Assembly (NCBI RefSeq): GCF_000230995.2 | Contig: NC_019973.1 | Coordinates: 2,556,001-2,620,000 of the forward strand | From: Mesorhizobium australicum WSM2073 | Lineage (GTDB): Bacteria > Pseudomonadota > Alphaproteobacteria > Rhizobiales > Rhizobiaceae | Length of the DNA stretch: 64,000 bases | Direction: 5' to 3' | Shown here: positions 33,861 to 60,161 of the stretch, piece after piece | Position numbering within the stretch: position 1 is the first letter of the stretch | Layout of the letters: the number at the start of each line of letters is the position of its first letter | Position numbers and translations under genes: made by a program | The notes under the pieces: model-generated | Seen by the model: only the letters and a program-made list of their open reading frames with translations | Databases searched by the model: none | What the model was told of the DNA's origin: nothing

Positions 33861-35119
33861 TGCGCGACGCGTTGCTTGCCGGCGGTGTCATCCTGTCAGC
33901 CGCGTCGCAGCTCTCCGTCCCCGGCATGCCATTCGGCTATGGCGAACTGCTCCTGGCGCTTTGGATCATGCTGTCGGCCGGACGAATGTTGGTCGGCGGG
34001 CGCGTCGAAGCGACACCAGCCTTCGCGCAACTCGCGACTTTTTGGCTGCTCCTTTCTCTCGCATTGGGGATCGGCACGATCGTCGGCTACTTGACCACCC
34101 TGCTTTACCCGACAGGGTTGTTGCACGACACAATGGCCTACGTGCTGTTGGCCAGCATCACTTGCCTGGCGAGTGTGGAGCCCGACGCGGGGCGTCGTCT
34201 TCGGCGCAGCGGTTGGTGGACAATCGTGTTCGCCGACGCAATATTTGCCATCCAACTCGCCATCGCGTGGGGCTGGCTCCATCAGCCCGGCGTCGATCCG
34301 TGGTATTGGGACCGCTTCCGCGGCTGGTCTGAAAACCCGAACCAGCTCGCGCTCTATTGCGCGCTTCTTGGTCCGCTGGCGCTGCACCTTGCAACCACTA
34401 CTCGCAACCGGTGGGGTCAGGCCCTTGCGCTCTCAAGCCTCGTGTTCATCTTTTTTGTCGGCCGCCTGACCAGGAGCGATGCCTATCTCTACACCACGAT
34501 TGTAAGCGGCGTCGCCTTCCTCGGGTTGCGGTTGAAGGCATGGTTGGCATCCGATGGCAATCGAACCAGCCTGCCCAGGCAGATCGCACTTCTGCTGATG
34601 GTCGGCGCTGTCCCCCTGGTGATAGCGATGACCCCCTATCTTCTTAGCGAGGAAAGCTTTGCGGCGAATTTTGCCAAGAGCCTCACCAAGGACGGAGGCG
34701 GCGAGGCCACGGCTGAAACATTCGAACTTCGGGTTTATCTGTGGGATGAGGCGCTTCAGAAGGGGCTGCAATCGGCATCGCTCGGCCTCGGTCCTGGCCC
34801 CCACCTGGAGCGCCCGCCGACGGCCGACATGCAATTTCTGGAGCGGCCGTTCGAAGCGCACAATACGGTTCTCGACCTCTATCTGCAGGGCGGGCTGGTC
34901 GCCGTCATCGCCTTGCTGTGGATTGTTGGATCGGCGGCCATGTCCGCCTGGCGCGCTCGCTACGACGCGCTTTTGGTGCTCGTGGCGTCCGCAGCCGTGT
35001 TCAGCATACCGCACCTCATCATTCGTCATCCGATCGTGTGGTTTGCATTGACCTTCTGCCTCGTCGCGGGACCGCCAAGCGTTTTCCGGCGCGAGCTTGA
35101 GCCTTCAGAGGTGATGTGA
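33857..35119 (+). CDS. Wzy-like polysaccharide polymerase (O-antigen ligase fold)
   Basis: A 420-residue inner-membrane protein with about ten helices, including GYGELLLALWIMLSAGRMLV and LTTLLYPTGLLHDTMAYVLL. The conserved RGWSENPNQLALY in a mid-protein loop and FEAHNTVLDLYLQGGLVAV near the C-terminus are hallmarks of the Wzy_C/WaaL family (the His of AHN is catalytic in relatives). Between Wzx and glycosyltransferase genes it most likely polymerises the repeat unit in the periplasm. It is coupled to both neighbours by overlapping stop and start codons. Confidence 0.87.
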   Translation: MMRDALLAGGVILSAASQLSVPGMPFGYGELLLALWIMLSAGRMLVGGRVEATPAFAQLATFWLLLSLALGIGTIVGYLTTLLYPTGLLHDTMAYVLLASITCLASVEPDAGRRLRRSGWWTIVFADAIFAIQLAIAWGWLHQPGVDPWYWDRFRGWSENPNQLALYCALLGPLALHLATTTRNRWGQALALSSLVFIFFVGRLTRSDAYLYTTIVSGVAFLGLRLKAWLASDGNRTSLPRQIALLLMVGAVPLVIAMTPYLLSEESFAANFAKSLTKDGGGEATAETFELRVYLWDEALQKGLQSASLGLGPGPHLERPPTADMQFLERPFEAHNTVLDLYLQGGLVAVIALLWIVGSAAMSAWRARYDALLVLVASAAVFSIPHLIIRHPIVWFALTFCLVAGPPSVFRRELEPSEVM

Positions 35120-37110
35120 TGTGCGGGATAGCCGGGATACTTCTCGCGTCCAATGCTGCCGACCCCAAGTCGCTCGATCAGATCGGGCAAATGATGATGG
35201 CGCTTCGTCACCGCGGTCCGGATGGCGAAGGACTCTGGACGGATCGCGAAGCAGGCATTGCCTTAGGCCACAGGCGGCTGGCGATCGTCGATCTGTCGGA
35301 AACGGGGCAACAGCCCATGCTGTCCACAAGCGGTCGGTATGCGATCACCTTCAACGGCGAGATATATAATTTCCGTGACCTGCGTCTCGAGCTTGAAGGC
35401 GTCGGGCACCATTTCCGCGGCACCAGCGACACGGAAGTCATGTTGTGTGCGATCGAGAGCTGGGGCCTCGAGGCCGCACTCCAGCGTTTTGCTGGCATGT
35501 TCGCGTTCGCCTTGTGGGACCTGAAGACGAGGACCCTCCATCTCGCGCGGGATCGACTGGGCAAAAAGCCCCTCTACATCGCTTCAGCCAGGCATGCGCT
35601 GGTCTTTGCTTCCGAACTGAAAGCAATCAGCCGCTTTTCAGGCTACTCTCCGGAGATCGATGTGGATGCCGCCACTGCAATGCTTTCCAAAGGGTGGGTC
35701 CCGGATCAGAGTTGCATTTGGCGAGGTGTCTTCAAGCTGCCACCCGGCTCGGTCCTGACCCTCACGGCCGCGACTGTGGCGGAGGGGCGCGGGGCCGCCT
35801 CCCTTTCGCAGGGCGCAAGTCGCTGGTGGTCGCTGGCCGAAGTCGCCAAGAACGGGCGAGAACACCAGATCGCCGGCAGTGACGACGATTTGACCAATGA
35901 ACTGGATGATCTGCTCCGGCTTGCCGTTCGCGAGCGCATGATCGCCGACGTTCCGTTGGGCGGTTTCCTGTCGGGAGGCGTCGACAGCTCTACCGTTGCA
36001 GCCTTGATGCAGGCTCAATCTCCAAATCCCGTGCGCACTTTCACCATCGCCTTCGCGGAGAGCGGCTTTGACGAGGCCCCTTACGCCGCCGAGGTAGCGC
36101 GCCATCTGGGCACCGACCACACGGAACTACACCTTTCGGCCGCCGCCGCGCGTGACGTGATCCCCGAACTGCCAACGGTGTGGGATGAGCCATTCGCCGA
36201 CGAATCGCAGATACCGACTCTGCTGGTGGCGCGGCTGGCCCGCCAGCACGTGACCGTGGCGCTGTCGGGGGACGGCGGAGACGAGTGCTTTGCAGGCTAT
36301 GGCCGCCACTTCATGGCGGACCGGCTGAAACGGTACCAAGGTCTACCCGCAAGTGCACGACGAACGGTGGCGGCCGGCGCAGGGATGCTGTCCAGGGCGG
36401 CTCGTCACGATTTCATTGGCAACCTGCCACTTCCGTCGCATGTGCGGCATGCGCTGCGCAGCGATCGGCTCACTCGCTTCGCCTGGCTTCTCGCCGCGAA
36501 GGATGAAGACGAGCTGCACAGGCGGCTGACGGGATCATCGGCCGAAAACCTCACCCGGCACGAGACTCCTGCATCCATAGTCTCTGCACCGCGGCTCGAC
36601 GGGCTGTTGTCTCGCCTCCTGTACGACGACATGTCCGGTTACCTCGCTGGTGACATTCTCGTCAAACTGGATCGAGCCAGCATGGCCAACAGCCTCGAGG
36701 CGCGTTGTCCCCTGCTGGACCACCGCGCCGTCGAATTCGCTTGGCGCCTTCCGGCTGCCATGAAGGTTCGCAACGGCAGAGGCAAGTGGATCCTTCGAAA
36801 TGTGCTGCGTCGTTATCTTCCGCAACGGCTGATCGACCGGCCGAAGCAGGGCTTCGACGTGCCGATCGCGGCTTGGCTGCGGGGCCCGTTGCGCAGCTGG
36901 GCCACCGATATTCTGTCCGATGTTCGCAACCAGGGCGAAGGCTTGCTGGACAGCACAAAGGTGGACGCCTGCTGGCGCGATCACGTTGCAGGACAGGACC
37001 GCTCCCGTGACCTGTGGTCGGTGCTGATGTTTCAAGCCTGGTGCAACGAGGCCAAGCGGCAGGCGTCGGCATCGAACTCATCCCGTGAACTCGATCTGGC
37101 AGGAGTATGA
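35119..37110 (+). CDS. AsnB-type glutamine-dependent amidotransferase (polysaccharide operon)
   Basis: A 663-residue enzyme. The nucleophile Cys2 of MCGIAGILL fixes the start at 35119, overlapping the wzy stop by one base (TGATG). The glutaminase domain (RHRGPDGEG, FNGEIYNFRDLR) is followed by the synthetase domain with the ATP-pyrophosphatase motif LSGGVDSSTVAA and SGDGGDECFAGYG. AsnB homologues in polysaccharide loci usually amidate a carboxylate, often a uronic acid, rather than making free asparagine. With the uronate epimerase at 25589 that suggests a galacturonamide residue, which is an inference. Confidence 0.9.
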   Translation: MCGIAGILLASNAADPKSLDQIGQMMMALRHRGPDGEGLWTDREAGIALGHRRLAIVDLSETGQQPMLSTSGRYAITFNGEIYNFRDLRLELEGVGHHFRGTSDTEVMLCAIESWGLEAALQRFAGMFAFALWDLKTRTLHLARDRLGKKPLYIASARHALVFASELKAISRFSGYSPEIDVDAATAMLSKGWVPDQSCIWRGVFKLPPGSVLTLTAATVAEGRGAASLSQGASRWWSLAEVAKNGREHQIAGSDDDLTNELDDLLRLAVRERMIADVPLGGFLSGGVDSSTVAALMQAQSPNPVRTFTIAFAESGFDEAPYAAEVARHLGTDHTELHLSAAAARDVIPELPTVWDEPFADESQIPTLLVARLARQHVTVALSGDGGDECFAGYGRHFMADRLKRYQGLPASARRTVAAGAGMLSRAARHDFIGNLPLPSHVRHALRSDRLTRFAWLLAAKDEDELHRRLTGSSAENLTRHETPASIVSAPRLDGLLSRLLYDDMSGYLAGDILVKLDRASMANSLEARCPLLDHRAVEFAWRLPAAMKVRNGRGKWILRNVLRRYLPQRLIDRPKQGFDVPIAAWLRGPLRSWATDILSDVRNQGEGLLDSTKVDACWRDHVAGQDRSRDLWSVLMFQAWCNEAKRQASASNSSRELDLAGV

Positions 37111-48231: not shown

Positions 48232-49236
48232 ATGAGCTACAATGGCAAGAGAGTTCTGGTCACCGGCGCGGATGGGTTCATTGGATCGCATCTGACCGAG
48301 GCACTCGTCCGCAACGGTGCCGAGGTGACCGCATTGGCCCTCTATAATTCATTCGACAGTCATGGATGGCTGGATGATCTGCCAGACGACATCCGAGGTC
48401 ATCTGAAACTCGTTCGAGGCGATGTACGCGACGGTGCATTCCTGAACCGGATCGTGCGCGGCCAAGCCGTCGTGTTTCATCTCGCTGCGCTTATCGCGAT
48501 CCCGTACTCATACGCGGCCGCCCAGTCCTATGTGGAAACCAATATCATGGGGACGCTGAATGTCCTTGAAGCGGCCCGCCAATGGGAGACGGAACGGATC
48601 ATTCACACCTCGACCAGTGAGGTTTACGGCACGGCGCTCAGCATGCCGATCAGCGAGTCCCATCCTCTTCAGGGACAATCGCCATATTCGGCGTCCAAGA
48701 TCGGCGCCGACATGATGGCGCAGTCCTATGCCAGATCGTTCGACCTGCCCGTCGTGATCCTCCGGCCGTTCAATACATTCGGGCCGCGACAAAGCGAACG
48801 AGCCATAATACCGACAATCATCCGGCAGGCGCTCGATCCAAAATGTGTTTCGATCATGGTGGGAGATACCAGCCCGGTCCGCGACCTGACCTTCGTCGAG
48901 GACACAGCGGCTGCCTTCCTGAGCGCGGGTTCAGCCACACTCGAATTCGGCCATGCCTATAATGCTGGAAGCCAGCGTGCCGTGACCATATCGGACGTGC
49001 TCGATCTCGTGCTCGAGCTGAGCAACTGCAAGAAGCCCGTCCACCGCGACGAGAGTCGATTGCGGCCGCAAAACTCCGAGGTTCGCGCTCTGCTGGCCGA
49101 TTCATCACGGCTCGAACGTGAAACCGGATGGACTGCGCAAACGAGTTTGCGCCACGGCTTGGCCAGAACCATCGATTGGTGGCGGGCGCGCCTCGGCGAA
49201 GGTCGGGTACGTCGCGAAATGAGCTACATGACATGA
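48232..49236 (+). CDS. SDR sugar-nucleotide dehydratase/epimerase (LegB-like)
   Basis: A 334-residue extended SDR enzyme. The NAD site is VLVTGADGFIGSHLTEALV; the active site is HTSTSEVYGTA with the YxxxK of YSASKIGADMM; RPFNTFGPRQSERAIIPTII is a substrate segment seen in UDP-GlcNAc 4,6-dehydratases such as LegB. With DegT and a nucleotidyltransferase it fits synthesis of a 4-amino-4,6-dideoxy sugar. GAAAGAAGGA precedes the ATG. It overlaps the next gene by 4 bases. Confidence 0.88.
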   Translation: MSYNGKRVLVTGADGFIGSHLTEALVRNGAEVTALALYNSFDSHGWLDDLPDDIRGHLKLVRGDVRDGAFLNRIVRGQAVVFHLAALIAIPYSYAAAQSYVETNIMGTLNVLEAARQWETERIIHTSTSEVYGTALSMPISESHPLQGQSPYSASKIGADMMAQSYARSFDLPVVILRPFNTFGPRQSERAIIPTIIRQALDPKCVSIMVGDTSPVRDLTFVEDTAAAFLSAGSATLEFGHAYNAGSQRAVTISDVLDLVLELSNCKKPVHRDESRLRPQNSEVRALLADSSRLERETGWTAQTSLRHGLARTIDWWRARLGEGRVRREMSYMT

Positions 49237-50495
49237 GGTTTTACCCACTCCCATTGGCACTGCTCCTGATCGCCTTTGCTGTCCTGCTGCGGGCGGCCGA
49301 CAGCCAGGGAAACAGCATGTCCACGACGTTCGTCGCGCCAATGCCGATGGATCTCCCAGATTATCTGCATCCCGCGACAGATCCGGCATTCGGCACGAAT
49401 TTCATGCGCATCACCAAACCCGGCGCACTTGGGGGAGGTGTCGTGTGTGGGACGAAATATTGCAGTCATCGCTATTCGAGCGCTCAAGCCTGGAATGCGG
49501 ACCAAAGCCTGCTCGTGCTGGCCAATGGCTGCAACGGGCTGTGCTTCCTCGACGGCAAGACATATGCTCCGCTATTCCACCGCGACAAAGGCGGTGAATG
49601 CGAATGGCATCCTCGAAACGCAGACGTGATGATCTGCGTTGAGGATCGGAAGATCTCGACATGGGCGCCAAGGACAAACCACGAAGACGTTGTCTTCGTC
49701 ACGGCTCAATACCACGATCTGCAGTTCGGGCCGTCGAAGGGCAATCCAAGCCGTGACGGCAACCGTATAGCCGTCCGCGCTGTCCGCGCGGATGGAAAAG
49801 CGGTGGTGTTCGCCTTCGATCTCGCGGATCGGTTCAAATTCCCGGACATCGATCTCGCTCTGGTTCCCGGAACCACCAGCTCCTGTACCATCTCCCCGCT
49901 CGGCACGAACATCCTTTGCTTTCAAAACCTGGCCGACGGCACCGAGCAGAGGGCCATTTTCAGTGTCGATGGCACCTTGCGACAGAGGTGGACGGACCAT
50001 CACCGCCCCGGCCACGGAGACCTTACGCTCGATGACGACGGCAGCGAGGTCTATGTAGGCATCAGCAAATCCGGCCCCGACAAGTATCACGTAGTCAAGC
50101 GAAGACTGTCCGATGGGAAGGTGACCTCCCTGACCGGATACGGCGAAGCAGAGCATGCATCGTCGCGGGCTCTGAAGCGGCCCGGCTGGGTCTTCCTGAC
50201 CTATGGCGGCAACCCTGAGGAGGTATCGGCCAATCCAGGCTGGGCACCATATGCACGGGAAGTCATCGCGTTGCGCATCGACGGCAGCGGCGAAGTTCGG
50301 CGCATCGTGCAGACACGCAACGCGCCATTCGACTACTGGAGCGAGACGCATGCGTCACCTTCGCCGGACGGCACACAGGTGATCTGGTCCAGCAATTGGG
50401 GCGTGGCCGGTGGACCGGTTTACGACTTCGTCACCCGCGTCGACTGGCCCGAAAACCAGGACAAGAAGGAGATTGTCGCGAATGGTCAACCTTAG
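49233..50495 (+). CDS. secreted Cys-rich beta-propeller protein
   Basis: A 420-residue protein with an N-terminal signal peptide or anchor (FYPLPLALLLIAFAVLLRAA). The rest is built of WD/TolB-like blades (SSAQAWNADQSLLVLANG, TISPLGTNILCFQNLADG, DLTLDDDGSEVYVGISK, ASPSPDGTQVIWSSNWG), resembling the fold of oligogalacturonate lyases. Six N-terminal Cys (72, 77, 100, 104, 123, 135) suggest disulfides, so it is probably periplasmic or outside the cell. It may cut or bind the polysaccharide. The ATG overlaps the previous stop (ATGA), and its end overlaps the exporter by 14 bases. Confidence 0.78.
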   Translation: MRFYPLPLALLLIAFAVLLRAADSQGNSMSTTFVAPMPMDLPDYLHPATDPAFGTNFMRITKPGALGGGVVCGTKYCSHRYSSAQAWNADQSLLVLANGCNGLCFLDGKTYAPLFHRDKGGECEWHPRNADVMICVEDRKISTWAPRTNHEDVVFVTAQYHDLQFGPSKGNPSRDGNRIAVRAVRADGKAVVFAFDLADRFKFPDIDLALVPGTTSSCTISPLGTNILCFQNLADGTEQRAIFSVDGTLRQRWTDHHRPGHGDLTLDDDGSEVYVGISKSGPDKYHVVKRRLSDGKVTSLTGYGEAEHASSRALKRPGWVFLTYGGNPEEVSANPGWAPYAREVIALRIDGSGEVRRIVQTRNAPFDYWSETHASPSPDGTQVIWSSNWGVAGGPVYDFVTRVDWPENQDKKEIVANGQP

Positions 50496-51741
50496 CCGAT
50501 TCTTCCTTGCGACACTTGCGATGCTTTGCGCCCTGCCAATGACTGCGGCAGCGGATGCGACGATCTATCGAATTTCGCCCGGAGACACCATCGAGGTCGC
50601 AATCACCTCGCTTCCCGAGCGGACGCAGCGTGCGGTGGTGCAGATGGACGGCACCATCGTCCTCGCCGAGGCAGGCACGGTGCCTGTCGCCGGCCTGACT
50701 CCGTCCGAACTTCAGACGCGCTTGCAGGCGATCCTGCCGACCAAGATCTACCACATACGCATGCCGGACGGCCGTGAGCAGGTGGCGGTCGTCAGGCCCG
50801 GCGACGTGACGGCGACCATCGCTGAATACCGTCCGATCTACGTGACTGGCGAAGTGCTCGCTCCTGGGCAGCAAGCCTTTCGTCCGCTCATGACGGTTCG
50901 GCAGGCGATAGCCGTCGCCGGCGGCTTCAGCCTCTTGCGTGCACGGGCGAACCAGGCTGGGCCGGACCCAACGGACTTGCAGCGCGATTATGAGACGATC
51001 TGGGGAGAATACATCAAGGACTATTTCCACAGTGCGCGCATACGTGCCGAACTTCAAAAGCAGCCCGATTTCGACATGAAGGCCCCCCAGGGCTTTCCGC
51101 TGTCTTCTTCCCTCGCAACCGAAATCGCGCAGGCCGAGGCAGAAGGGCTGAAGCTCTCGCTGGACAATTTCGGGCAGGAGCAGAGCTTTCTGGAGAAGGG
51201 CGCCAAGGATGCAGCGACCCAGGTCCAGGCGTTGCTCCAGCGCGAGCAGGACGAAGCCGATGGAGTCAAGGCCGATGAAGAGGATTTGGCGCAGGTGACC
51301 AAGCTCTTCAAGGCTGGCAACCTGACCAACAACCGGCTCGCCGATGTCCGGCGCGCGGTACTTCTGTCCTCGAGCCGTGCGCTTGAAACTTCGGTCGAAC
51401 TCATGCGGGCTCGGCGCCAACAGGATGATCTTGCAAGGCAGATCGAGCGCAATGACAACCAGAGGCGTGCCGGTTTGTTGAACGAGTTGCGGGATACACA
51501 GGCGCGCCTTGCCGACATCACCGCAAGGCTGCACGCGGTCAGCCAGAAATTGCAGCCGCAGGGAGCATCCGCCTTGCCGCAGCCGATCGGCGGCGAAACC
51601 GTGCGGGCCCAGGTGACGATCATCCGCTCCGTCGATGCGCAATGGCGCAAGCAGCCGGCCGACCAGGATACCGCGGTGGCGCCGGGTGATACGATCGAGG
51701 TCAGATTCAGCAGCGCGCTCGAAAGCGCGGCGGTGCAATAG
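50482..51741 (+). CDS. ExoF-like polysaccharide export protein
   Basis: A 419-residue periplasmic or outer-membrane protein with a Sec signal peptide (FFLATLAMLCALPMTAAADA). A Poly_export domain (YRISPGDTIEVAI, VQMDGTIVLAEAGTVPVAGL) and an SLBB-type segment (PIYVTGEVLAPGQQAFRPL, TVRQAIAVAGGF) are followed by a long coiled coil (about 210-370) and a second VAPGDTIEVRF. Length and order match rhizobial ExoF, the Wza-like exit partner of the copolymerase at 37112. It is the last gene of the operon. Confidence 0.9.
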   Translation: MVNLSRFFLATLAMLCALPMTAAADATIYRISPGDTIEVAITSLPERTQRAVVQMDGTIVLAEAGTVPVAGLTPSELQTRLQAILPTKIYHIRMPDGREQVAVVRPGDVTATIAEYRPIYVTGEVLAPGQQAFRPLMTVRQAIAVAGGFSLLRARANQAGPDPTDLQRDYETIWGEYIKDYFHSARIRAELQKQPDFDMKAPQGFPLSSSLATEIAQAEAEGLKLSLDNFGQEQSFLEKGAKDAATQVQALLQREQDEADGVKADEEDLAQVTKLFKAGNLTNNRLADVRRAVLLSSSRALETSVELMRARRQQDDLARQIERNDNQRRAGLLNELRDTQARLADITARLHAVSQKLQPQGASALPQPIGGETVRAQVTIIRSVDAQWRKQPADQDTAVAPGDTIEVRFSSALESAAVQ

Positions 51742-51801: not shown

Positions 51802-52494
51802 GTGAGCGAAGAGATCAGCGTCGCCGGCGCTTACAACAAAGGCAGCATCACCTTCATGGGAATGGAGATCCTGGTTGCGCCCGGTGCGCTGGTGCCGCGG
51901 CCGGAAACAGAGCTGCTCGGCTCCATTGCCGTAGATGTTCTGCGCGCAATGGATCTGCCGGCGCCGCGTGTCGTCGACATGTGCTGTGGCGCCGGCAACC
52001 TGGCCTGCGCGATCGCTAGCCATATCCAATCCGTGCGAGTTTGGGCCTGCGATCTTACCGACGGCTGTATCGGCGCGGCGCGACGAAATGTCGTTCATCA
52101 TGGCTTGACTGACCGGATTTCAGTGCATCAGGGTGATTTGTTCGAAGGCGTGTCCGGACTGGAGCTCGACGGCACGCTTGATGCCATCGTCTGCAATCCG
52201 CCCTACATTTCGGAGAAGCGGCTCGAGGGTGATCGCCGCCATCTGGTCGTGCTTGAGCCGCGAGAGGCATTCGCGGCCGGTCCTTATGGGCTCAGCATTC
52301 ATATGCGGGTCGTCAAGGACGCGCTGCGCTACCTCCGACCAGGCGGCGTCCTGCTGTTCGAGGTGGGGCTTGGTCAGGACCGCCAGGTCATAAGTCTTCT
52401 GGAGCGCAGCAAGGGCTACGAGCAGATACGCACCTTCGCCAACCATGCCGGTGAAGTGCGGGTGGTCCTGGCAGGGGCCAGGCGGCAGGCATGA
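51802..52494 (+). CDS. PrmC/HemK-like N-methyltransferase without the N-terminal domain
   Basis: A 230-residue SAM-dependent methyltransferase. It has LVPRPETELL and the SAM site VVDMCCGAGNLACAIA, then CNPPYIS, the NPPY motif of glutamine- and amino-group methyltransferases. PrmC itself has about 70 more residues at the N-terminus, which bind release factors; they are absent here, so the substrate is probably different. The start is GTG at 51802 with no clear ribosome site. It follows the ExoF-like gene by 60 bases on the same strand and is convergent with the acyl carrier gene. Confidence 0.82.
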   Translation: MSEEISVAGAYNKGSITFMGMEILVAPGALVPRPETELLGSIAVDVLRAMDLPAPRVVDMCCGAGNLACAIASHIQSVRVWACDLTDGCIGAARRNVVHHGLTDRISVHQGDLFEGVSGLELDGTLDAIVCNPPYISEKRLEGDRRHLVVLEPREAFAAGPYGLSIHMRVVKDALRYLRPGGVLLFEVGLGQDRQVISLLERSKGYEQIRTFANHAGEVRVVLAGARRQA

Positions 52495-52548: not shown

Positions 52549-52824
52549 TCATTTCTTCTTGCGAACGATGAACCGCGCGATTCCTTGAATCGAATCGAGG
52601 TTTTCCGGCAGGAGTTCACTGTCTTCCACTGTGATGCCGAAAGTCTCTTCGATGAACCCGATCACCTCGAGCACTCCGGTCGAGTCGACGATCCCCTGAT
52701 CGAGCAATGATGCGGTGAGGGATAGCGCCTTGACGTCCGCGATGTAGAAATTCGAGGCCAGGAAGCTGCGGATCTGGTTGATATGAATGTCGTCGCTTTC
52801 CGCGGCCGATATCATGGAATCCAT
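52549..52824 (-). CDS. acyl/peptidyl carrier protein
   Basis: A 91-residue free carrier protein. The phosphopantetheine site is Ser48 in DQGIVDSTGVLEVIGFIEE, and the following EETFGITVEDSELLPENLDS is the usual helix III region. It is distinct from fatty-acid ACP (DSLDxVEL) and closer to D-alanyl or amino-acyl carriers of biosynthetic clusters. It is the last gene of the operon, 52 bases after the ligase. A phosphopantetheinyl transferase would have to be encoded elsewhere. Confidence 0.9.
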   Translation of the reverse strand: MDSMISAAESDDIHINQIRSFLASNFYIADVKALSLTASLLDQGIVDSTGVLEVIGFIEETFGITVEDSELLPENLDSIQGIARFIVRKKK

Positions 52825-52876
52825 CTAATCCATCCTCCGTTGCAAAGGCGACTTGCGATCGCGCTTCTGAAACAAT

Positions 52877-54430
52877 CTACGACAGGGCCGCTTTCTTGAG
52901 TTTTCCGGTATCGGTCATCGGCAGGCTGGGCACGATGACGATGGTCTTTGGCACCATGAAATTCTCCAGCCGTTTCCGGCACTCCATCAGGAGCTGCCTT
53001 TCGCCGACAATTCTTCCCTGCTCGATGACGACGAATGCTTTGACCGCTTGCCCGAGGAGGTCGTCGGGAACACCGATGACCGCGGCTTCCTTCACCCCAG
53101 GGACGTCCATCAGCACGCTTTCCACCTCTTTGGGAGCGACCTTTTCGCCTCGTGATTTTATGATCTCGTCACCACGGCCGACGAAGTACAAATAGCCTTC
53201 AGCGTCCATCCGGCAGTAGTCGCCCGTGTAGAGGACCTGCTCGCCCGGCAGCGGCCCCGGCTTCAGCTTCCTTGCCGTGGCCTCTGGCTTGCCCCAATAG
53301 CCTTTCATCACCGTTGCGCCGCGGACTACAAGTTGGCCAACGACGCCCGGACCGACCCGCCTGCCACTCTCGTCGACGATCCACACTTCTGTGTTGGGAA
53401 TGGCAATGCCTACGCTGAGGGGCTTTCGCCCGAGATCGTCGGGCGGCAGATAGCTGCAGCGTTTGCATTCGGTGAGGCCGTACATGGAATAGATGCGTGC
53501 GCCCGAAAACAGCTCCCTGAGCATGGCAATCTGCTTGAGCGGCAGGGCGGCCGCGGTATTGGTGACATAGCGGATGCTCGCGAAATCGTTGCTCTTCAGC
53601 GATCTGAGCTCCGCAAGCGCCGCGAAGATCGTGGGCACGCCCGGAAAGCCTGTGATCTGCTCGTCCTTGATCACCTGAAGGATCTGCGCCGGAAAAGCGA
53701 AGGAGCGTTCGAGGACGAGCCGTGCGCCGGTGCGAAAGGCCATGATCATTTGATAGAGCCCGTAGTCGAAGGCGAGGGGCAGGACGTTGAGGATCACCTC
53801 ATCTTCACGCAGTTCCAGGTAGGAGGCGATCGATGTGCACGCGGCAGTCATGTTGCCGTGCGTCAACATGACCCCCTTGGGTTCGCCGGTGGATCCGGAG
53901 GTGTAGACGATGGCCGCGAGATCGATGTCGATCGATTTGCGCGGCGGCGCAACAGAAGGTCTGTCGACGATCGTGTCCCAGCGAACGGCGTGCGGCAATC
54001 GGTTGAACTCGGCCTCGTTGATCGTCCCAGAGACAATCACCGCCCGCAGCGAGTGACAGTCGCGCGACGGTTGGCAGAATATCGAGTGTAGATGGCTGTC
54101 CGTGATCAGCGCCGCTGGCAGGCAATCGTTGAGCAGGTAATGAAGCTTCTCGCTTTTCGTAAGCGGGTTGACGATGCAGACCACGGCGTTCGCCTTGAGC
54201 ACCGCCCAGAAGCTGACGACGGTTTCGACCGTATTGTCGGCGAAGATCATGACGCGGTCGCCACGCTCGACGCCCGCCGCGGCCAGGAAATGCGCGATCC
54301 TGTCGGAGCGCTCATCGATCTCCGCATAGGTGACACGTTGCTTGCCGGCCACCAACGCGATCTTGCCGCCAAGCCGGACGGCGGAATGGATGAGGTAGTC
54401 CTGCAGGAGTGGTACGGCGCCGTGGATCAT
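52877..54430 (-). CDS. acyl-AMP / acyl-CoA ligase (ANL superfamily)
   Basis: A 517-residue adenylating enzyme. The motifs are AIVYTSGSTGEPKGVMLTHGN (A3), YSMYGLTECKRCSYLPP (A5), VLYTGDYCRMDAEGYLYFVGRGDEIIKSRGEKVAPKE (A7-A8 regions) and the C-terminal Lys in MTDTGKLKKAAL (A10). YGLTECKR is typical of carboxylic-acid ligases rather than amino-acid-activating A domains. It probably loads an acyl group on the neighbouring carrier protein. It overlaps asnB by 4 bases. Confidence 0.9.
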   Translation of the reverse strand: MIHGAVPLLQDYLIHSAVRLGGKIALVAGKQRVTYAEIDERSDRIAHFLAAAGVERGDRVMIFADNTVETVVSFWAVLKANAVVCIVNPLTKSEKLHYLLNDCLPAALITDSHLHSIFCQPSRDCHSLRAVIVSGTINEAEFNRLPHAVRWDTIVDRPSVAPPRKSIDIDLAAIVYTSGSTGEPKGVMLTHGNMTAACTSIASYLELREDEVILNVLPLAFDYGLYQMIMAFRTGARLVLERSFAFPAQILQVIKDEQITGFPGVPTIFAALAELRSLKSNDFASIRYVTNTAAALPLKQIAMLRELFSGARIYSMYGLTECKRCSYLPPDDLGRKPLSVGIAIPNTEVWIVDESGRRVGPGVVGQLVVRGATVMKGYWGKPEATARKLKPGPLPGEQVLYTGDYCRMDAEGYLYFVGRGDEIIKSRGEKVAPKEVESVLMDVPGVKEAAVIGVPDDLLGQAVKAFVVIEQGRIVGERQLLMECRKRLENFMVPKTIVIVPSLPMTDTGKLKKAALS

Positions 54431-56448
54431 GCCAGGACCCTTTCCCGCTGTTCGTGATCAACGTCGATCCTGAGCTCGGCTTTGTCCGCTCCGCCCGGGC
54501 GGCTCGCGATGAACTGCTGATGCAGAAGCTGGGTCGACAGCACGCCGACCAGTGCCATGTTGTCGGAGTTGGAGAGATCGCCGCCGCCGGCCCTGGACCG
54601 GCACTTTCCAAGCAGGAAAGCCACCGATTTCGGATCGAAGACGTTTGCCGCGCGCAATGCCGTGTCCGACAGTGCTTCGCGAATGTAATCTGGTGCATCA
54701 TGACCAACGAAACTAAGCGCATTTGGCGCCCTGTAGGGCTGCTTCGTGCGGGCAACGACTTGCGGTGGGACGATCGGCTGCGCCACTCGCTTGAGCACGT
54801 GCTTTTCGTCGAGGATGCGCAACTTGTAAGCATCCGGAAGCGAATTCGCGAGCGCCACGACATCGTCGTCGAGATAGGGGAAGCGTCCCTCGACCGAGTG
54901 TGCCATCAGCATCCTGTCGCCCTGCGAGGAGAGCAGGTAGCCCGACATCAGCGTTCGGATTTCGAGATACTGGTCCTGGGCAAGGAAGCTCCATCGCGAA
55001 AATTCGGCGGGGAGAGGGGCGAGCAGTTCGGAGACCGCATTGCGGTGCTGCGAGGCGCCGCGCATGTCGGGGCAGAATAGGCGCTTGATGGCGCTCGTGG
55101 TGCGCCAGCGCGTGTCATGTGCAAAGCCGGGCCTGTCGCAGGCATGAAGATCGAGCCCGAAGAACTGTCGCGCCATGGCCTGTTGGTGCACCGGTGAGCG
55201 CGACAGATAGGGGTAGAGACGCTCGAGCAGTCGCGCACGCCGGCTCGAAGCAGGTTGACGCCCCCAGAAGCGGCGAACCTTGCCTTCGCGGAAAAGGTCG
55301 TAGCCGGCGAACATCTCGTCGGCGCCTTCCCCTGTCAGCACAACCTTGATGCCGCGCTCGCGGACCAACTTGGATAGAAGGAAGAGCGGTGCCGGGGCCG
55401 TCCTCAGGATTGGCCGCTCGGCGTGGTAGACGACCTCGGGAAAAACCGCTGCAATGTCGCGGCGGGAAATCACCACCTCGTGGTGCTCGCTCGCGGTGGC
55501 GGCGGCGACCAGGCGCTGGAAATAGGTCTCGTCGTATTCCTCGTCGGCAAAACGCAAGGAGAATGTCTGGAAGCGCTCCCCCGCGAAACGTCTCCCAAGC
55601 GCCGCGACAAGCGAGCTGTCGAGCCCACCGGACAAATAGCAGCCCACCGGCACGTCGGCCTGCACCATCCGCAGCGCCGTCGCGGCTTCGAGCGCACCGC
55701 GGACCGCCTCGACGGCATCGTCGCACGAGCCGCTGAACCATTCAGGGTCGGAAGCGGAAATTCGCGGATAATGCGGCTCCCAGAAGGCCGTCTCCCGTGC
55801 CACGCCACCTTCATAGAGCCGGATATGTCCAGGCTGCAGTTCCTTGACGCCTTCGAAGACGCTCTGCGGCGGGATCACCGTCCAGAATGTGAATGTCTGA
55901 TCGATTCCTGCCGGATCAAAGGCGCGAGGAATCGCTGTTTCCGCAGCGAAAATGGCTTTGACTTCGCTTGCAAAGAAGACGCAGCCGCCGTGCTCGCAAT
56001 AATACAGCGGGCAGATGCCGTAGCGGTCACGCGACAGGATCAGGCGGCCGGCAGCAGAGTCCCATATCGCGACTGCCCATTGACCATTCATCCGTTCAAA
56101 GGCGGCCTGGCCCCAGGCCTGGTAAGCGTGGAGCACGACTTCCGTGTCGCTATGCGTGCGGAAGCGGTGACCAAGCGCGATCAACTTGTCGCGCAATTCG
56201 ACGTAGTTGAAGATTTCACCGTTGAAGACGATCCATGTCAGGCCGCTCACGTCGGCGAGTGGCTGCTGGCCGTGCAGCAGGTCGACCACGGACAGGCGGG
56301 CATGCGCCAAACCCGCACGTCGGTCGCGGTACAGCCCCCGCTCGTCGGGTCCGCGGTGTGCGAGCGCGCCCACCATACGCAACAGCGCTTCCCGCGAAGG
56401 AGGTGGGGCAGTGGCGCTCAGCGCGACAATTCCGGCGATCCCGCACAT
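54427..56448 (-). CDS. AsnB-type glutamine-dependent amidotransferase (carrier cluster)
   Basis: A 673-residue paralogue of the AsnB at 35119. It starts MCGIAGIV with the nucleophile Cys2; the glutaminase motifs are HRGPDERGLY and FNGEIFNYVELR. The synthetase part has VGCYLSGGLDSSLVAALG and LTGEGADEMFAGYD. In a cluster of carrier and adenylating enzymes it more likely forms an amide on a pathway intermediate than asparagine. It lies 3 bases after the NadE-like gene and overlaps the ligase gene by 4 bases. Confidence 0.9.
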   Translation of the reverse strand: MCGIAGIVALSATAPPPSREALLRMVGALAHRGPDERGLYRDRRAGLAHARLSVVDLLHGQQPLADVSGLTWIVFNGEIFNYVELRDKLIALGHRFRTHSDTEVVLHAYQAWGQAAFERMNGQWAVAIWDSAAGRLILSRDRYGICPLYYCEHGGCVFFASEVKAIFAAETAIPRAFDPAGIDQTFTFWTVIPPQSVFEGVKELQPGHIRLYEGGVARETAFWEPHYPRISASDPEWFSGSCDDAVEAVRGALEAATALRMVQADVPVGCYLSGGLDSSLVAALGRRFAGERFQTFSLRFADEEYDETYFQRLVAAATASEHHEVVISRRDIAAVFPEVVYHAERPILRTAPAPLFLLSKLVRERGIKVVLTGEGADEMFAGYDLFREGKVRRFWGRQPASSRRARLLERLYPYLSRSPVHQQAMARQFFGLDLHACDRPGFAHDTRWRTTSAIKRLFCPDMRGASQHRNAVSELLAPLPAEFSRWSFLAQDQYLEIRTLMSGYLLSSQGDRMLMAHSVEGRFPYLDDDVVALANSLPDAYKLRILDEKHVLKRVAQPIVPPQVVARTKQPYRAPNALSFVGHDAPDYIREALSDTALRAANVFDPKSVAFLLGKCRSRAGGGDLSNSDNMALVGVLSTQLLHQQFIASRPGGADKAELRIDVDHEQRERVLA

Positions 56449-56451
56449 CCG

Positions 56452-57435
56452 TCAGTCCACCGTCATTGGCACCGAAGGCAAAGGCTGGGCGTGCAGATAG
56501 CGCGCCGCTCGACGCTTGGCTTCGATATCCTTGAAGACCTTCTGAACCTCGTCTGGTGACAACCCGGCAACATCAGCGACCTCATCGGCGCAGATGCCAT
56601 GGTTCACGCCGTAGAGGCATAGGTCCGTCTGATGATAGGGCAGGGCGAAGTAGAACTCCTCCTGGCTCTGCGCCATGGAGAAGGTGTCGGTCGTCGGCGG
56701 CCTGCGCCGGATCTCCCCGTCCACACCGAGATATTCCGCCAGTTGATAGACCTGCGTCTTGTAGAGGTGGACGATCGGCATCAGGTCAGCGATTCCGTCG
56801 CCTTGCTTGACGAAAAAACCCTGATCATATTCGAGCCGGTTAGGCGTGCCCGCCACCGCATAGCCGAGACGGTCCGCGTGATAGTACTCAGTCATCTTGC
56901 GAATGCGCTGCTTGTAATTGGTCGCGGCCACTATCTGCAGATAGGCCGCTCCTGACAGGCGCACGGTATCGATCTTCCCCTGGGGGTCCTGAACGGTGAG
57001 ACGGGTGATATTGAGGCCTTTGCTCTCCAGCACCGAGGTCAGCACCAGCTTGCATTTCCACCCTTCGCCGTAGTCCGGAACAACGGTGCGAATGGCCTCT
57101 ATCTGCCGGCTATAGGCACCGATGGCGTCGAGCGCCGGCGCAATGTCCTCGGCGATGGTGTCGATGCCCAGCTGACCGGCGATAACGCGCCCCAGCCTCA
57201 GCGAGTCCCCGGACGAGTCACGCTCCGGCATGAAGATCCCGAGTACCCTGTCCTTGCCGAAGGCAGCCACGCACAACGACGCGACCACCGAACTGTCGAT
57301 GCCGCCTGAGAGCCCGACCACCACTCCGCGCCGGCGGAGCGTGACCAATACCTGCTCGCGCACGGATGCTACGATGCGGTCGACCTCCGCGGCCGCATCC
57401 AGTGCCAGAACATCCTTGCCGAACCGCGAAGTCAC
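56452..57435 (-). CDS. NadE-like ammonia-dependent NAD synthetase / ATP pyrophosphatase
   Basis: A 327-residue ATP pyrophosphatase. The P-loop SGGIDSSVVASLC starts at about residue 43, followed by the NAD-synthetase segments NYKQRIRKMTEYYHADRLGYAVAGTPNRLEYDQGFFVKQGDGIADLMPI and YKTQVYQLAEYLGV. There is no nitrilase (glutaminase) domain, so it would use free ammonia. Family members adenylate nicotinate-adenine dinucleotide and amidate it. Inside a carrier-protein operon it may amidate another carboxylate. Overlap with the upstream gene is 4 bases. Confidence 0.88.
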   Translation of the reverse strand: MTSRFGKDVLALDAAAEVDRIVASVREQVLVTLRRRGVVVGLSGGIDSSVVASLCVAAFGKDRVLGIFMPERDSSGDSLRLGRVIAGQLGIDTIAEDIAPALDAIGAYSRQIEAIRTVVPDYGEGWKCKLVLTSVLESKGLNITRLTVQDPQGKIDTVRLSGAAYLQIVAATNYKQRIRKMTEYYHADRLGYAVAGTPNRLEYDQGFFVKQGDGIADLMPIVHLYKTQVYQLAEYLGVDGEIRRRPPTTDTFSMAQSQEEFYFALPYHQTDLCLYGVNHGICADEVADVAGLSPDEVQKVFKDIEAKRRAARYLHAQPLPSVPMTVD

Positions 57436-60161
57436 GCGAAGCTGCCTTTCATGGTTGAAGACTCGGCCGGCGAATAAGTGCGAGCGACCGCCTCCTCGAT
57501 CAGCGGACGATTGACGCCGATGTGAGGCTCGACGACCAGATCAATGTGGTTGCCGGCAATCGGGATGACCTGCAGGTCCGCGAACACCCGATCCCATCCG
57601 ATCGCAAGAGGCATTCCCGGTCGCGCGCAACGGAACAGCGTTCCGGTGATCGGGAGCACCGTTCTTGGCTGCTCCAACCAACGGAAGAAGGCCTGCGCAC
57701 GCAAGACTTCCTGCAGCTCCAGCTTGATGCGGAAGCTGGTTGCGTTGAATTGTCCTCGGGAAAAGTGGTCGATGGCTTGGGCAAGACGAGCTTCCTGGCC
57801 GACCTTGACCGTGAGCTTCGCCAAAACACGGCAAGCCATTCGATAGGGTGACATGCGGTTGGATCGGACCCGGCGCAAGGTGCGGGTGATTGTCTCCCAG
57901 GGACGGCTCCGCTCGCCAGCCAGGCTGGTGTCGAGGATACCGACAAACTTCACGGACCTTCCCTCCTTCAGCAGGCGCACGGCAACTTCGAATGCGACGG
58001 CTCCGCCGAGCGAGTGGCCGAGTAGCCTTACATGGCCCGACGGCTGGATGCGGTTGATCTGTTCAAGCGCGGCGTCCACCATGGCGGCAAGATCGTTCTG
58101 GCCGCTGAGAATGGTCGCGAGGCTGGGATATCTTATCGGACGGACCGTTGCGACTTTGCCCATGGCTGAGGCGAAGGCTGCAAGACTAGGCCCATAGCCC
58201 ACGGAGCCGGGAAACAGAAAGAGAAAAGGCCGATCATGCTCCAGCACATGATCGGGCGCATTGCCGGCTTGTGCGGACGCGACCGCGCTGACCATCGCTT
58301 CGGCGCTCATCCCGACGGTAAATGCCTCAAGATCCAGTTCCTGGCCGATTTCGTTCTCGATCTCCATGACGCAGTGGAGCAGCTTCAGCGAGTCCCCTCC
58401 CGCTTCATCCCATCGCCCGACGGCTGCCCGCGTGTTGAGGACCCTGGTCCAGGCATTCTGCACTGCTTGATGGGCCTTGAGATCGCTGCCTGAAATCGGT
58501 GGATCGGCAACTTGGGTAGGCTTCTTGGCCAGAAGATCCATTTTCCCGAGTTTCGCCACATCTATTTTTCCGCCCGCCAGGCGCGGAATGTCCTCTACCC
58601 TGTGGAGCCGAAGCGGCCGCAGTGGCGGCGGTAGCGTCTTTGCAAGCAGCTGGCGAAGGTCGTCGGCGAAGGCCGGACCGGCGGAATTCCTGGGGATCGC
58701 GAAAGCGACCAGTTCGTTGGCCTCGGTCACGATCGTCACCGCATCCTCGACTGACGAGGCGGAGCGCAGGATCCTCTCGACTTCGGCCGGCTCGATGCGC
58801 CGACCGTTGATCTTTATCTGCCGCCCCTTGCGGCCGACGATCCTCAGCAGGCCCCGATTGTCCAATTGGACGAGATCGCCGGTCGCGAATATCCGTTGAC
58901 TTGGATCATCGGGATCCGCCTCGGCAGGGATGACGGTGCCGTTTTCCCAGTGGCCGAGCAAGACGTAGGGGCTCTTGATGACGAGTTCCCCGCTTCCGCC
59001 CCGCGGTACGCTGTCACCGTCCTCGTTGACGATCGCAAAAGCTATTCCTGGCAAGAGCCGGCCGACCGGCACGGACGTTTGGTTCTTTGGTTGAACGCGA
59101 GGCAGAAACCATTGTGACCCGGTCGTCTCGGTTGACGAGTAGCCGATCTGTACGAGGCAATGAGCAGGAATCGCCTTTCGCAAAAGGGCAATGTCGGTCC
59201 AAAGCACTTTCTCGCCGCCGACGCGGACCACCCTGAGCGACCCGAAGGCATCGGCGGGGGCATTGGCCATGAGGGCGCGAAGCAGCGCGGGCACGAGGTA
59301 AGTAAGCGTCGCGCCAACCTGCTGCATTCGCTCGCGAACCGCACGCAGGCCGATCGCTTCCACGTCGACCATATGCAAAGTGGCGCCGCACAGGACCGAA
59401 GTCAGGATTTCTCGACATCCGGCTATGGTGGCGGGCCCGGTCAAGGGGAGGAAGACATCGTCGGAATTGATGTGACACGCATCGGCATATTGGTGCACCC
59501 GCCAGAGCAGGCTGCGCTGGCTGTTGACTATGCCCTTTGGAGATCCGGTGCTGCCAGACGTGTAAAGAACCATCGCCGGTGCATCGACGGATACGGCAGG
59601 CAATTGCGTCGATGACAGCGGCGCCGTCGACTCGGGGCTGGCAGTCACATCGATCCACCGGATGTCCTCGGGTAAACCCGCATGCCGGTGTCCAACGCCA
59701 AGAATGGCGCGGAGCCGCGCGACGCCGACAATCTCGTTGACACGGGCGATTGGGTCCCGGGCGTTGAGGGGAACCGAAATCCTTCCCGCCGCCATGCTCG
59801 CCAGGACAGCAACGATGTACCAGACGGAGTTTGGTTGATAAATTCCGATCGGCTGCCCCACGGGAACGACGGCAGCGATCCGGCGGGACAGGACTTCGAC
59901 GGCAGTTGCAAGCTCGAAGTACGACAGTTGATTCACGCCGTCATGCACAGCGGCTTTTTCGGAATATTGGGCCGTGGCTTTCTTGAGCTGATCGGCAATC
60001 CCGACATCTGCAAATGCCGGGCCCAACTTCTGATGAAGGCGCAGCGCCGGGCCACCTTGATCCAGGGCGTAGGCCGGGACGTCTATCCATCTGCGGGAGG
60101 GCCGAGAATCCTGGTGATGGTCCTGATCCGCTGCTGGTGCATTCAAATACGCCGGGAGCAT
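57432..60161 (-). CDS. NRPS-like adenylation-carrier-thioesterase protein
   Basis: A 909-residue multidomain enzyme. The adenylation domain (about 30-530) has MVLYTSGSTGSPKGIVNS, GYSSTETTGSQWFLP, FATGDLVQLDNRGLLRIVGR and KINGRRIEPAEVE. A carrier domain (about 560-630) has the pantetheine Ser in WDEAGGDSLKLL. A C-terminal thioesterase (about 650-900) has the nucleophile Ser in LLGHSLGGAVAFEVA and a late His in GNHID. No condensation domain is present. The A4 region lacks the FDxS of amino-acid activators, so the substrate may be another acid. It is first in the operon, after a 334-base gap. Confidence 0.9.
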   Translation of the reverse strand: MLPAYLNAPAADQDHHQDSRPSRRWIDVPAYALDQGGPALRLHQKLGPAFADVGIADQLKKATAQYSEKAAVHDGVNQLSYFELATAVEVLSRRIAAVVPVGQPIGIYQPNSVWYIVAVLASMAAGRISVPLNARDPIARVNEIVGVARLRAILGVGHRHAGLPEDIRWIDVTASPESTAPLSSTQLPAVSVDAPAMVLYTSGSTGSPKGIVNSQRSLLWRVHQYADACHINSDDVFLPLTGPATIAGCREILTSVLCGATLHMVDVEAIGLRAVRERMQQVGATLTYLVPALLRALMANAPADAFGSLRVVRVGGEKVLWTDIALLRKAIPAHCLVQIGYSSTETTGSQWFLPRVQPKNQTSVPVGRLLPGIAFAIVNEDGDSVPRGGSGELVIKSPYVLLGHWENGTVIPAEADPDDPSQRIFATGDLVQLDNRGLLRIVGRKGRQIKINGRRIEPAEVERILRSASSVEDAVTIVTEANELVAFAIPRNSAGPAFADDLRQLLAKTLPPPLRPLRLHRVEDIPRLAGGKIDVAKLGKMDLLAKKPTQVADPPISGSDLKAHQAVQNAWTRVLNTRAAVGRWDEAGGDSLKLLHCVMEIENEIGQELDLEAFTVGMSAEAMVSAVASAQAGNAPDHVLEHDRPFLFLFPGSVGYGPSLAAFASAMGKVATVRPIRYPSLATILSGQNDLAAMVDAALEQINRIQPSGHVRLLGHSLGGAVAFEVAVRLLKEGRSVKFVGILDTSLAGERSRPWETITRTLRRVRSNRMSPYRMACRVLAKLTVKVGQEARLAQAIDHFSRGQFNATSFRIKLELQEVLRAQAFFRWLEQPRTVLPITGTLFRCARPGMPLAIGWDRVFADLQVIPIAGNHIDLVVEPHIGVNRPLIEEAVARTYSPAESSTMKGSFA

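Follow-up and report, generated by a model that had tools for sequence, protein, structure and literature searches.

The window, a stretch of 64,000 nucleotides from Mesorhizobium australicum WSM2073, contains a set of five minus-strand genes running from position 60161 to 52549, all of which were recovered as open reading frames exactly where an earlier note had placed them (Table 1). As calculated from the coordinates, the A-T-TE and NadE-like genes overlap by 4 bases, the NadE-like and AsnB-like genes are separated by 3 bases, the AsnB-like and ligase genes again overlap by 4 bases, and a gap of 52 bases separates the ligase from the carrier gene. Terminator-like sites are not in excess (7, compared with a mean of 6.1 in shuffles). 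Judged from its sequence, the five-gene set is a real operon. Pfam confirms its domains, and the proposal that two enzymes which adenylate and two which form amides serve one carrier-protein pathway is supported. The polysaccharide export gene, on the other hand, does not lie directly beside the operon as had been claimed: a plus-strand PrmC-like gene, overlooked in that note and convergent with the operon, sits between the two.

Table 1. Genes of the cassette and its surroundings (window positions)
Feature	Length (aa)	Position	Strand	Supporting match
A-T-TE protein	909	57432..60161	-	Pfam AMP-binding, 191.7 bits; Thioesterase, 72.4 bits
NadE-like NH3-type ATP pyrophosphatase	327	56452..57435	-	Pfam NAD_synthase, 163 bits
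AsnB-like glutamine-dependent amidotransferase	673	54427..56448	-	Pfam Asn_synthase, 299 bits
VinN-type AMP ligase	517	52877..54430	-	VinN is the best PDB match (substrate region)
Free-standing carrier protein	91	52549..52824	-	Pfam PP-binding, 28.6 bits (cut-off 20.8)
Shortened PrmC-like N-methyltransferase (NPPY)	230	51802..52494	+	TIGR03534, 165 bits
Polysaccharide export protein (context, outside the core cassette)		50410..51741	+	Pfam Poly_export, 57 bits

Distribution of the cassette

The cassette is real and widely conserved. Of 88 well-flanked, non-redundant loci spread over many phyla, 77 contain the AsnB, carrier, ligase and NadE genes as one group. AsnB is absent nearby in seven of the 88, and six of these seven have a ligase that lacks the D, T, K and R set described below. 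Pairwise identities between the cassette genes correlate with each other (mirror-tree r of 0.69 to 0.89), a range that includes shared species history and is thus supportive only; the NadE and carrier rows are incomplete, as some of these genes were missed in the gene calls. No named pathway for this gene set or its families was found in the open-access literature searched, in agreement with the earlier note.

The order of five genes described in this note did not hold as the unit of conservation. The A-T-TE protein passes a threshold of E 1e-120 in only 2 of 385 class-level genomes (its own and one other, with two candidates scored per genome), and four further relatives keep the thioesterase part alone. 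We rejected the five-gene order for these reasons: the A-T-TE protein has been added in particular lineages, and the conserved unit is made up of the four core genes plus an optional PrmC-like gene. A thioesterase count over the cassette loci was unusable, since the A domain of the A-T-TE query matches the ligase. Other cassettes are accompanied by a GNAT-like protein.

Among 19 aligned A-T-TE relatives the GGDS and G.SLGG motifs are retained, the latter reading GHSLGG in the thioesterase of the window. The carrier (T) domain was recognised by the conserved GGDS and has no Pfam match. The adenylation domain lacks the Asp that contacts an amino group, and in the 19 relatives the site that usually reads FDxSxxE is occupied by ATIAGCRE.

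The AMP ligase and its predicted substrate

The best PDB match to the substrate region of the ligase is VinN (E 1.2e-20), with an identical TECKR segment. Ligase residues Asp222, Tyr223, Thr292, Lys323 and Arg324 align with Asp230, Phe231, Ser299, Lys330 and Arg331 of VinN (chain numbers minus 16), which are named as 3-methylaspartate recognition residues in two reports (PMC11253843; PMC7756342). The aspartate for the amino group and the bulky residue next to it are thus present as Asp222 and Tyr223, and the α-carboxylate set is also present, with a conservative Ser-to-Thr change at Thr292. Arg324 is kept in 105/105 aligned ligases, window included, whereas Asp222, Thr292 and Lys323 co-vary, Thr292 being found in all 59 ligases that have the D/K pair. 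The D, T, K and R set is missing from the ligases of 36 of the 87 scored well-flanked loci, so not all cassettes use aspartate. Classed by sequence, the ligase of the window appears to be of the VinN type and to join aspartate to a carrier as an aminoacyl group; the predicted substrate is L-aspartate, less probably glutamate or another amino-dicarboxylate. The 'acylated' product of the earlier note should then become an aminoacylated one. The carrier itself has its Ser48 in a VDSTG segment, with DST invariant in 82/82 aligned sequences, window included.

VinN-type ligases attach aspartate via its side-chain carboxyl, and in the known pathways the α-carboxyl is then decarboxylated. For AFC-BC11, activation of L-Asp and its loading onto a free carrier have been demonstrated for AfcQ, a VinN-type enzyme, with AfcP as the decarboxylase of the carrier-bound aspartate (PMC12186527). 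VinN/VinO of the vicenistatin starter pathway and AfcQ/AfcK/AfcP resemble the cassette in pairing a free-standing A-domain ligase with a free carrier and in handling an aspartate-type substrate through the side-chain carboxyl, as predicted here, and VinN shares the D, S/T, K and R recognition set. They differ in what follows: a PLP enzyme removes the α-carboxyl there, whereas the cassette has NadE-like and AsnB-like enzymes, and a TIGR03099-type PLP decarboxylase was found in 0/112 cassette loci at E 1e-5. This count rests on two usable queries, which matched 20/20 control regions and gave no cassette locus below E 0.2; the genome of the window likewise has no TIGR03099 match at E 1e-100. Conversely, a related ligase occurs in 18 of the 20 decarboxylase regions and a NadE-like gene in none, and the position of Lys323 is a phenylalanine in 18/18 ligases adjoining the decarboxylase.

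Predicted amide-forming and methylating enzymes

Among aligned relatives, no catalytic motif inspected in AsnB, NadE or the carrier varies; in AsnB these motifs are Cys2 and SGG.DS (101/101, window included). The NadE-like protein shares the fold and the ATP-binding SGGIDSS motif of NH3-dependent NadE, NAD synthetases being the top fold matches of its predicted model (pLDDT 85.7). It is longer, however, than the solved NH3-dependent enzymes listed (238 to 285 aa) and has extra strands (127–132, 144–149 and 155–159 in the model). Another NadE is present in all 36 cassette genomes tested, which should make the cassette copy dispensable for the NAD of the cell; its predicted role in the cassette is to form an amide. 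The cassette seems to have taken in relatives of two housekeeping enzymes.

The PrmC-like protein shares the catalytic NPPY and PR.ETE segments with PrmC, the release-factor glutamine N5-methyltransferase, but scores under the TIGR03534 cut-off (199 bits) and lacks about 47 N-terminal model positions, the match beginning at position 48. NPPY, presumably marking a PrmC-type amide N-methyltransferase, occurs in 35/35 aligned PrmC-like proteins, window included. Among the matches listed, at least 13 of 36 genomes have a shortened copy, which in each of the 13 lies within 18 kb of the NadE gene of the cassette; a full-length PrmC is also found in each of the 36. With one of the 88 well-flanked loci unscored, a PrmC-like gene within 8 kb accompanies 32 of 51 ligases with the D, T, K and R set (19 of 38 when Mesorhizobium-type loci are left out) and none of the 36 others. 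The remaining 19 of the 51 aspartate-type loci have none within this distance; three genomes have the gene 12 to 17 kb away. The methyltransferase gene appears to belong to the cassette system.

A proposed aspartyl-amide pathway and its alternatives

We propose, with a probability of about 0.5, that the cassette makes an amidated aspartyl group on the free carrier protein in five steps. The AMP ligase would activate the side-chain carboxyl of L-aspartate, or of a very similar amino-dicarboxylic acid, and load it onto the carrier, leaving the α-amino and α-carboxyl groups free; at the residue level this predicted step is well supported. Either the NadE-like or the AsnB-like enzyme, or both, would then amidate the α-carboxyl, where vicenistatin-type pathways decarboxylate it. 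For a single α-carboxyl, two amide-forming enzymes are one more than the scheme accounts for, which counts against it. In some loci, the amide nitrogen may be methylated by the PrmC-like enzyme. The thioesterase would release or transfer the group, with a second acid, one that has no α-amino group, probably added by the A and T domains of the A-T-TE protein, and the group would end up on a neighbouring surface polysaccharide or in a small exported product. The cystobactamid (iso)asparagine linker pathway has a carrier-bound isoasparagine building block like the one proposed here, obtained there from asparagine by an aminomutase/dehydratase domain and not by side-chain loading of aspartate and amidation (PMC7966384). 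The wider reading is of a multi-phylum carrier pathway that makes (N-methyl-)isoasparaginyl groups from aspartate with paralogues of NAD synthetase and of the release-factor methyltransferase. It would be the amidating branch among the aspartyl-carrier pathways of the VinN family, its groups going to surface glycans or to small products for export. This reading is tentative, and in our view somewhat less likely than not.

The destination bears on the first alternative, rather unlikely in our view: a stand-alone small-molecule pathway, unrelated to polysaccharide, in which the thioesterase would free an amidated dipeptide-like metabolite in which the aspartyl amide is coupled to whichever acid the A-T-TE protein activates. 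The retained thioesterase motifs are consistent with it, as is the lack of an exporter homologue within 10 kb in 5 of the 16 Mesorhizobium-type loci that have sufficient flank. Against it, the other 11 do have a homologue of the polysaccharide exporter at this distance, and a Bradyrhizobium locus (L093) lies among polysaccharide genes. In all, 25 loci were chosen for a scan of the flanks, which covered 128 proteins from 21 diverse loci (L139 in part; L140, L141, L143 and L145 outside) and, after removal of 13 (11 short, two over 1,100 residues), 115 proteins. No polysaccharide family dominates among them, which again suits a small molecule; in raw counts for cassette flanks only, some families of sugar pathways were matched, with four epimerases and three glycosyltransferases. 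Polysaccharide genes as universal neighbours are unsupported in these 115 proteins, and the link to polysaccharide made in the earlier note survives in part, for the Mesorhizobium-type loci, but is weak outside Mesorhizobium. In the proposed pathway, the carrier-bound group may possibly be transferred to the neighbouring polysaccharide.

We consider it improbable that the locus is an exosortase-A-type carrier module minus its exosortase, one that prepares the nucleophile or glycan which exosortase systems join to proteins and that here would serve polysaccharide only. The XrtA module (TIGR03098, TIGR03099 and TIGR03108) does contain a related ligase with the equivalents of Asp222 and Arg324 and a related AsnB, and shares its polysaccharide setting with some loci; an exosortase W gene directly follows the NadE-like gene in loci L111 and L145, the latter with aspartate-type ligase residues. 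Yet the ligase and AsnB scores stay below the cut-offs (484 against 592 bits for TIGR03098, 390 against 817 for TIGR03108), the exosortase family is matched by 2/115 flank proteins (L145 lying outside the scan), and PF09721 has no match in the genome of the window. The XrtA module has the decarboxylase in place of which the cassette has a NadE-like gene, a gene absent from all 20 TIGR03099 loci. Strongly disfavoured, finally, is the chance adjacency of ordinary NAD and asparagine synthesis genes: the scores exceed curated cut-offs (NF002048, 505 against 313 bits; TIGR01536, 537 against 267) and the NadE-like fold is that of NAD synthetases, but the additional NadE in every genome tested, the linkage of four genes with correlated identities across phyla and the three-strand stretch at 127–159 all speak against it.

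If the amidation pathway is correct, the matches that this common set of genes gives to the NAD synthase, asparagine synthase, acyl-CoA ligase and PrmC families would together mark one biosynthetic module with predictable chemistry. The co-occurrence of NadE and PrmC paralogues would be explained, and these paralogues of NAD synthetase and of the release-factor methyltransferase would be carrying the names of their housekeeping relatives. Amidation would be a second fate of carrier-bound aspartate beside the known decarboxylation, and would give a way into the chemistry of the carrier modules that are linked to exosortases.

The five-gene run and its conserved core

The five genes that the earlier note had placed here are all present, closely spaced on the minus strand of a genome consisting of one contig of 6.2 Mb. 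The polysaccharide exporter, on the other hand, does not lie directly beside them as claimed: a PrmC-like gene, coding for a shortened relative of release-factor methyltransferase, intervenes, and beyond it come the exporter, a LegB-like dehydratase, a sugar phosphotransferase, a DegT aminotransferase and a nucleotidyltransferase.

Features of the window and of three other cassette loci (coordinates relative to the stretch named)
Feature	Position	Strand	Remark
Five-gene run	60161-52549	-	A-T-TE (adenylation-carrier-thioesterase) protein, NadE-like, AsnB-like, AMP ligase, carrier protein
A-T-TE / NadE-like junction			4-base overlap
NadE-like / AsnB-like junction			3-base gap
AsnB-like / AMP ligase junction			4-base overlap
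AMP ligase / carrier protein junction			52-base gap
PrmC-like methyltransferase	51802-52494		convergent with the run
455-aa protein	49128-50495	+	no Pfam or NCBIfam match; kept next to exporter in several other Mesorhizobium loci
Second AsnB-like gene	35116-37110	+	within polysaccharide gene set
420-aa protein	33857-35119	+	no Pfam match; within polysaccharide gene set
Exosortase W, L111	11010-12563		immediately downstream of NadE-like gene
Exosortase W, L145	11001-12551		immediately downstream of NadE-like gene
A-T-TE + NadE-like, L074	7241-10978		plasmid pMspAR07a; read as single frame

The closest named relatives of the window's NadE-like protein are from Mesorhizobium (78 to 89% identity), which makes this genus the most likely source of the window, and the gene occurs in 76/146 genomes at the genus level and in 36/199 of the bacterial family. 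Two versions coexist in 15 of the Mesorhizobium genomes (G851, G859, G874 and 12 others), with about 80% and about 60% identity to that of the window. The gene contains one in-frame TGA in G855 (contig C2) and in G967 (contig C73).

AsnB, carrier, ligase and NadE genes are found together in 33 of 35 family loci (the window's own excluded, with wider flanks); L037 and L039 are without AsnB. A scan of named genomes returned at least 590 stretches, 581 of which encode a relative of the window's NadE-like protein; record titles assign the best 80 loci to Alpha-, Beta- and Gammaproteobacteria, Myxococcota and other former Deltaproteobacteria, Planctomycetota, Acidobacteriota, Nitrospirota and Verrucomicrobiota, with one bin each titled Bacteroidetes and Armatimonadetes. 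The two sets together (115, or 112 after removal of three duplicates) are biased toward Rhizobiales, and 88 loci have at least 7 kb on either side of the NadE midpoint. Among these 88, AsnB is present in 81, the ligase in 87, the carrier in 83 and all four in 77, with a PrmC-like gene in 32 and a GNAT-like protein in 45. The full five-gene order, for which a search had been proposed, is shared by the remaining Mesorhizobium-type loci (L069 to L085, with L075 and L077 cut by a contig end), but the broader unit is the four-gene core. Of the 16 Mesorhizobium-type loci long enough to include the PrmC-like gene, 15 have it convergent with the run and one, L076, has it on the same strand; in L090, L095, L097 and L100 it immediately follows the ligase gene on the same strand. 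Ten loci (L087, L089, L092, L100 and L145 among them) also have, close to the cassette, a protein of about 284 aa with weak resemblance to the GDSL family. The cassette in a record titled Bacillus subtilis SK6B4 (L125), whose neighbours resemble those of L036 and L129 (Pseudochrobactrum), is probably contamination.

The AMP ligase and the fate of the carrier-bound acid

In NCBIfam, the window's ligase falls near the exosortase-A ligase family, with a score under the cut-off. Against the PDB, its 134-residue substrate region places VinN, the vicenistatin-pathway ligase, at the top (E 1.2e-20, compared with 5.7e-10 for the next other protein); over the full length VinN leads the single-A-domain chains, multi-domain synthetases ranking higher because their domain scores are summed. 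The TECKR motif is identical in both, and five VinN recognition positions align with Asp222, Tyr223, Thr292, Lys323 and Arg324. Passages of the review PMC11253843 and of the bolagladin paper (PMC7756342) name the VinN residues at these positions for recognition of the amino group and carboxylate. For the VinN-type ligase AfcQ, PMC12186527 demonstrates loading of L-Asp on a free carrier, followed by its decarboxylation there by AfcP. Arg324 is invariant (105/105 aligned ligases). Positions 222, 292 and 323 covary, with Thr292 in all 59 ligases having the Asp/Lys pair and alanine in 38 of the 41 other scored ligases; the cassette ligases therefore probably form two substrate classes, and by these residues the window's would belong to the aspartate class.

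The exosortase-A decarboxylase TIGR03099 was matched in 33/299 phylum-level genomes (E 1e-100). Regions of 16 kb (one of 11 kb) were fetched around the 20 best matches, 18 over the family cut-off and two below. A related ligase occurs in 18 of them, with the recognition code D, Y or A, S or T, F, R, and one region (L200) holds another AsnB relative; a NadE-like gene occurs in none of the 20. Conversely, no TIGR03099-type decarboxylase was found in the 112 cassette loci, in a search resting on two usable queries that matched 20/20 control regions but gave no hit below E 0.2 in any cassette locus. The mutual exclusion of the two genes in these sets suggests that decarboxylation and amidation may be alternative fates, the same kind of carrier-bound acid being decarboxylated in one system and amidated in the other. 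In the cassette, the α-carboxyl of this acid is predicted to be amidated by the NadE-like enzyme, the AsnB-like enzyme or both.

The accessory domains and the NadE and PrmC paralogues

The A domain of the A-T-TE protein has ATIAGCRE at the site of FDxSxxE, the motif of amino-acid-activating domains; the acid that it activates therefore probably lacks an α-amino group, judging from this motif. Carrier and thioesterase motifs are retained in 19 aligned relatives, the exception being L074 with its disturbed C-terminus. At L074, tblastn shows a frame change close to where the A-T-TE gene ends. In loci of Bradyrhizobium, Tardiphaga and Phreatobacter (L086, L088, L093, L094) the thioesterase alone is kept, so that it probably works on the free carrier.

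Each of the 36 cassette genomes encodes a further NadE that passes the family cut-off (at least 165 bits in 32, 66 to 80 bits in four) and a full-length PrmC that passes its own. Among the matches listed, 13 of the 36 also have shortened PrmC-like copies, starting at model position 47 to 54, and in all 13 the cassette NadE lies within 18 kb of one. A PrmC-like gene lies within 8 kb in 32/51 loci with a D, T, K, R ligase, against 0/36 others (one of the 88 unscored), and in 19/38 once Mesorhizobium-type loci are excluded; these counts are not independent events, since the loci share descent. The NPPY motif is retained in 35/35 aligned PrmC-like proteins. A structure model of the NadE-like protein (pLDDT 85.7) has strands at residues 127-159 flanked by two helices, and its top fold matches are NAD synthetases, including 3fiu, titled NMN synthetase, which by analogy offers a precedent for an altered substrate in this fold.

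Polysaccharide context and relation to known pathways

The polysaccharide link put forward earlier holds in part. Of 16 Mesorhizobium-type loci (L075 being too short to judge), 11 have an exporter homologue no more than 10 kb away; none was found within that distance in L069, L074, L079, L081 and L082. Polysaccharide genes surround L093, and in L111 and L145 the cassette sits within an exopolysaccharide and exosortase locus, but no family dominates the 115 flank proteins scanned from 21 loci. Decorating a polysaccharide is thus a plausible role for the window's cassette, but not a general one across the cassette loci.

The earlier note knew of no named pathway with this set, and open-access literature searches for the set or for its families found no paper that describes it. 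The nearest printed remark found, a passage of PMC7468200, is that AsnB-like TIGR03108 genes accompany exosortase and VimA-like genes. From the sequence comparisons, the gene set would belong with the VinN-type aspartyl-carrier pathways, from which it would differ by its predicted amidation step.
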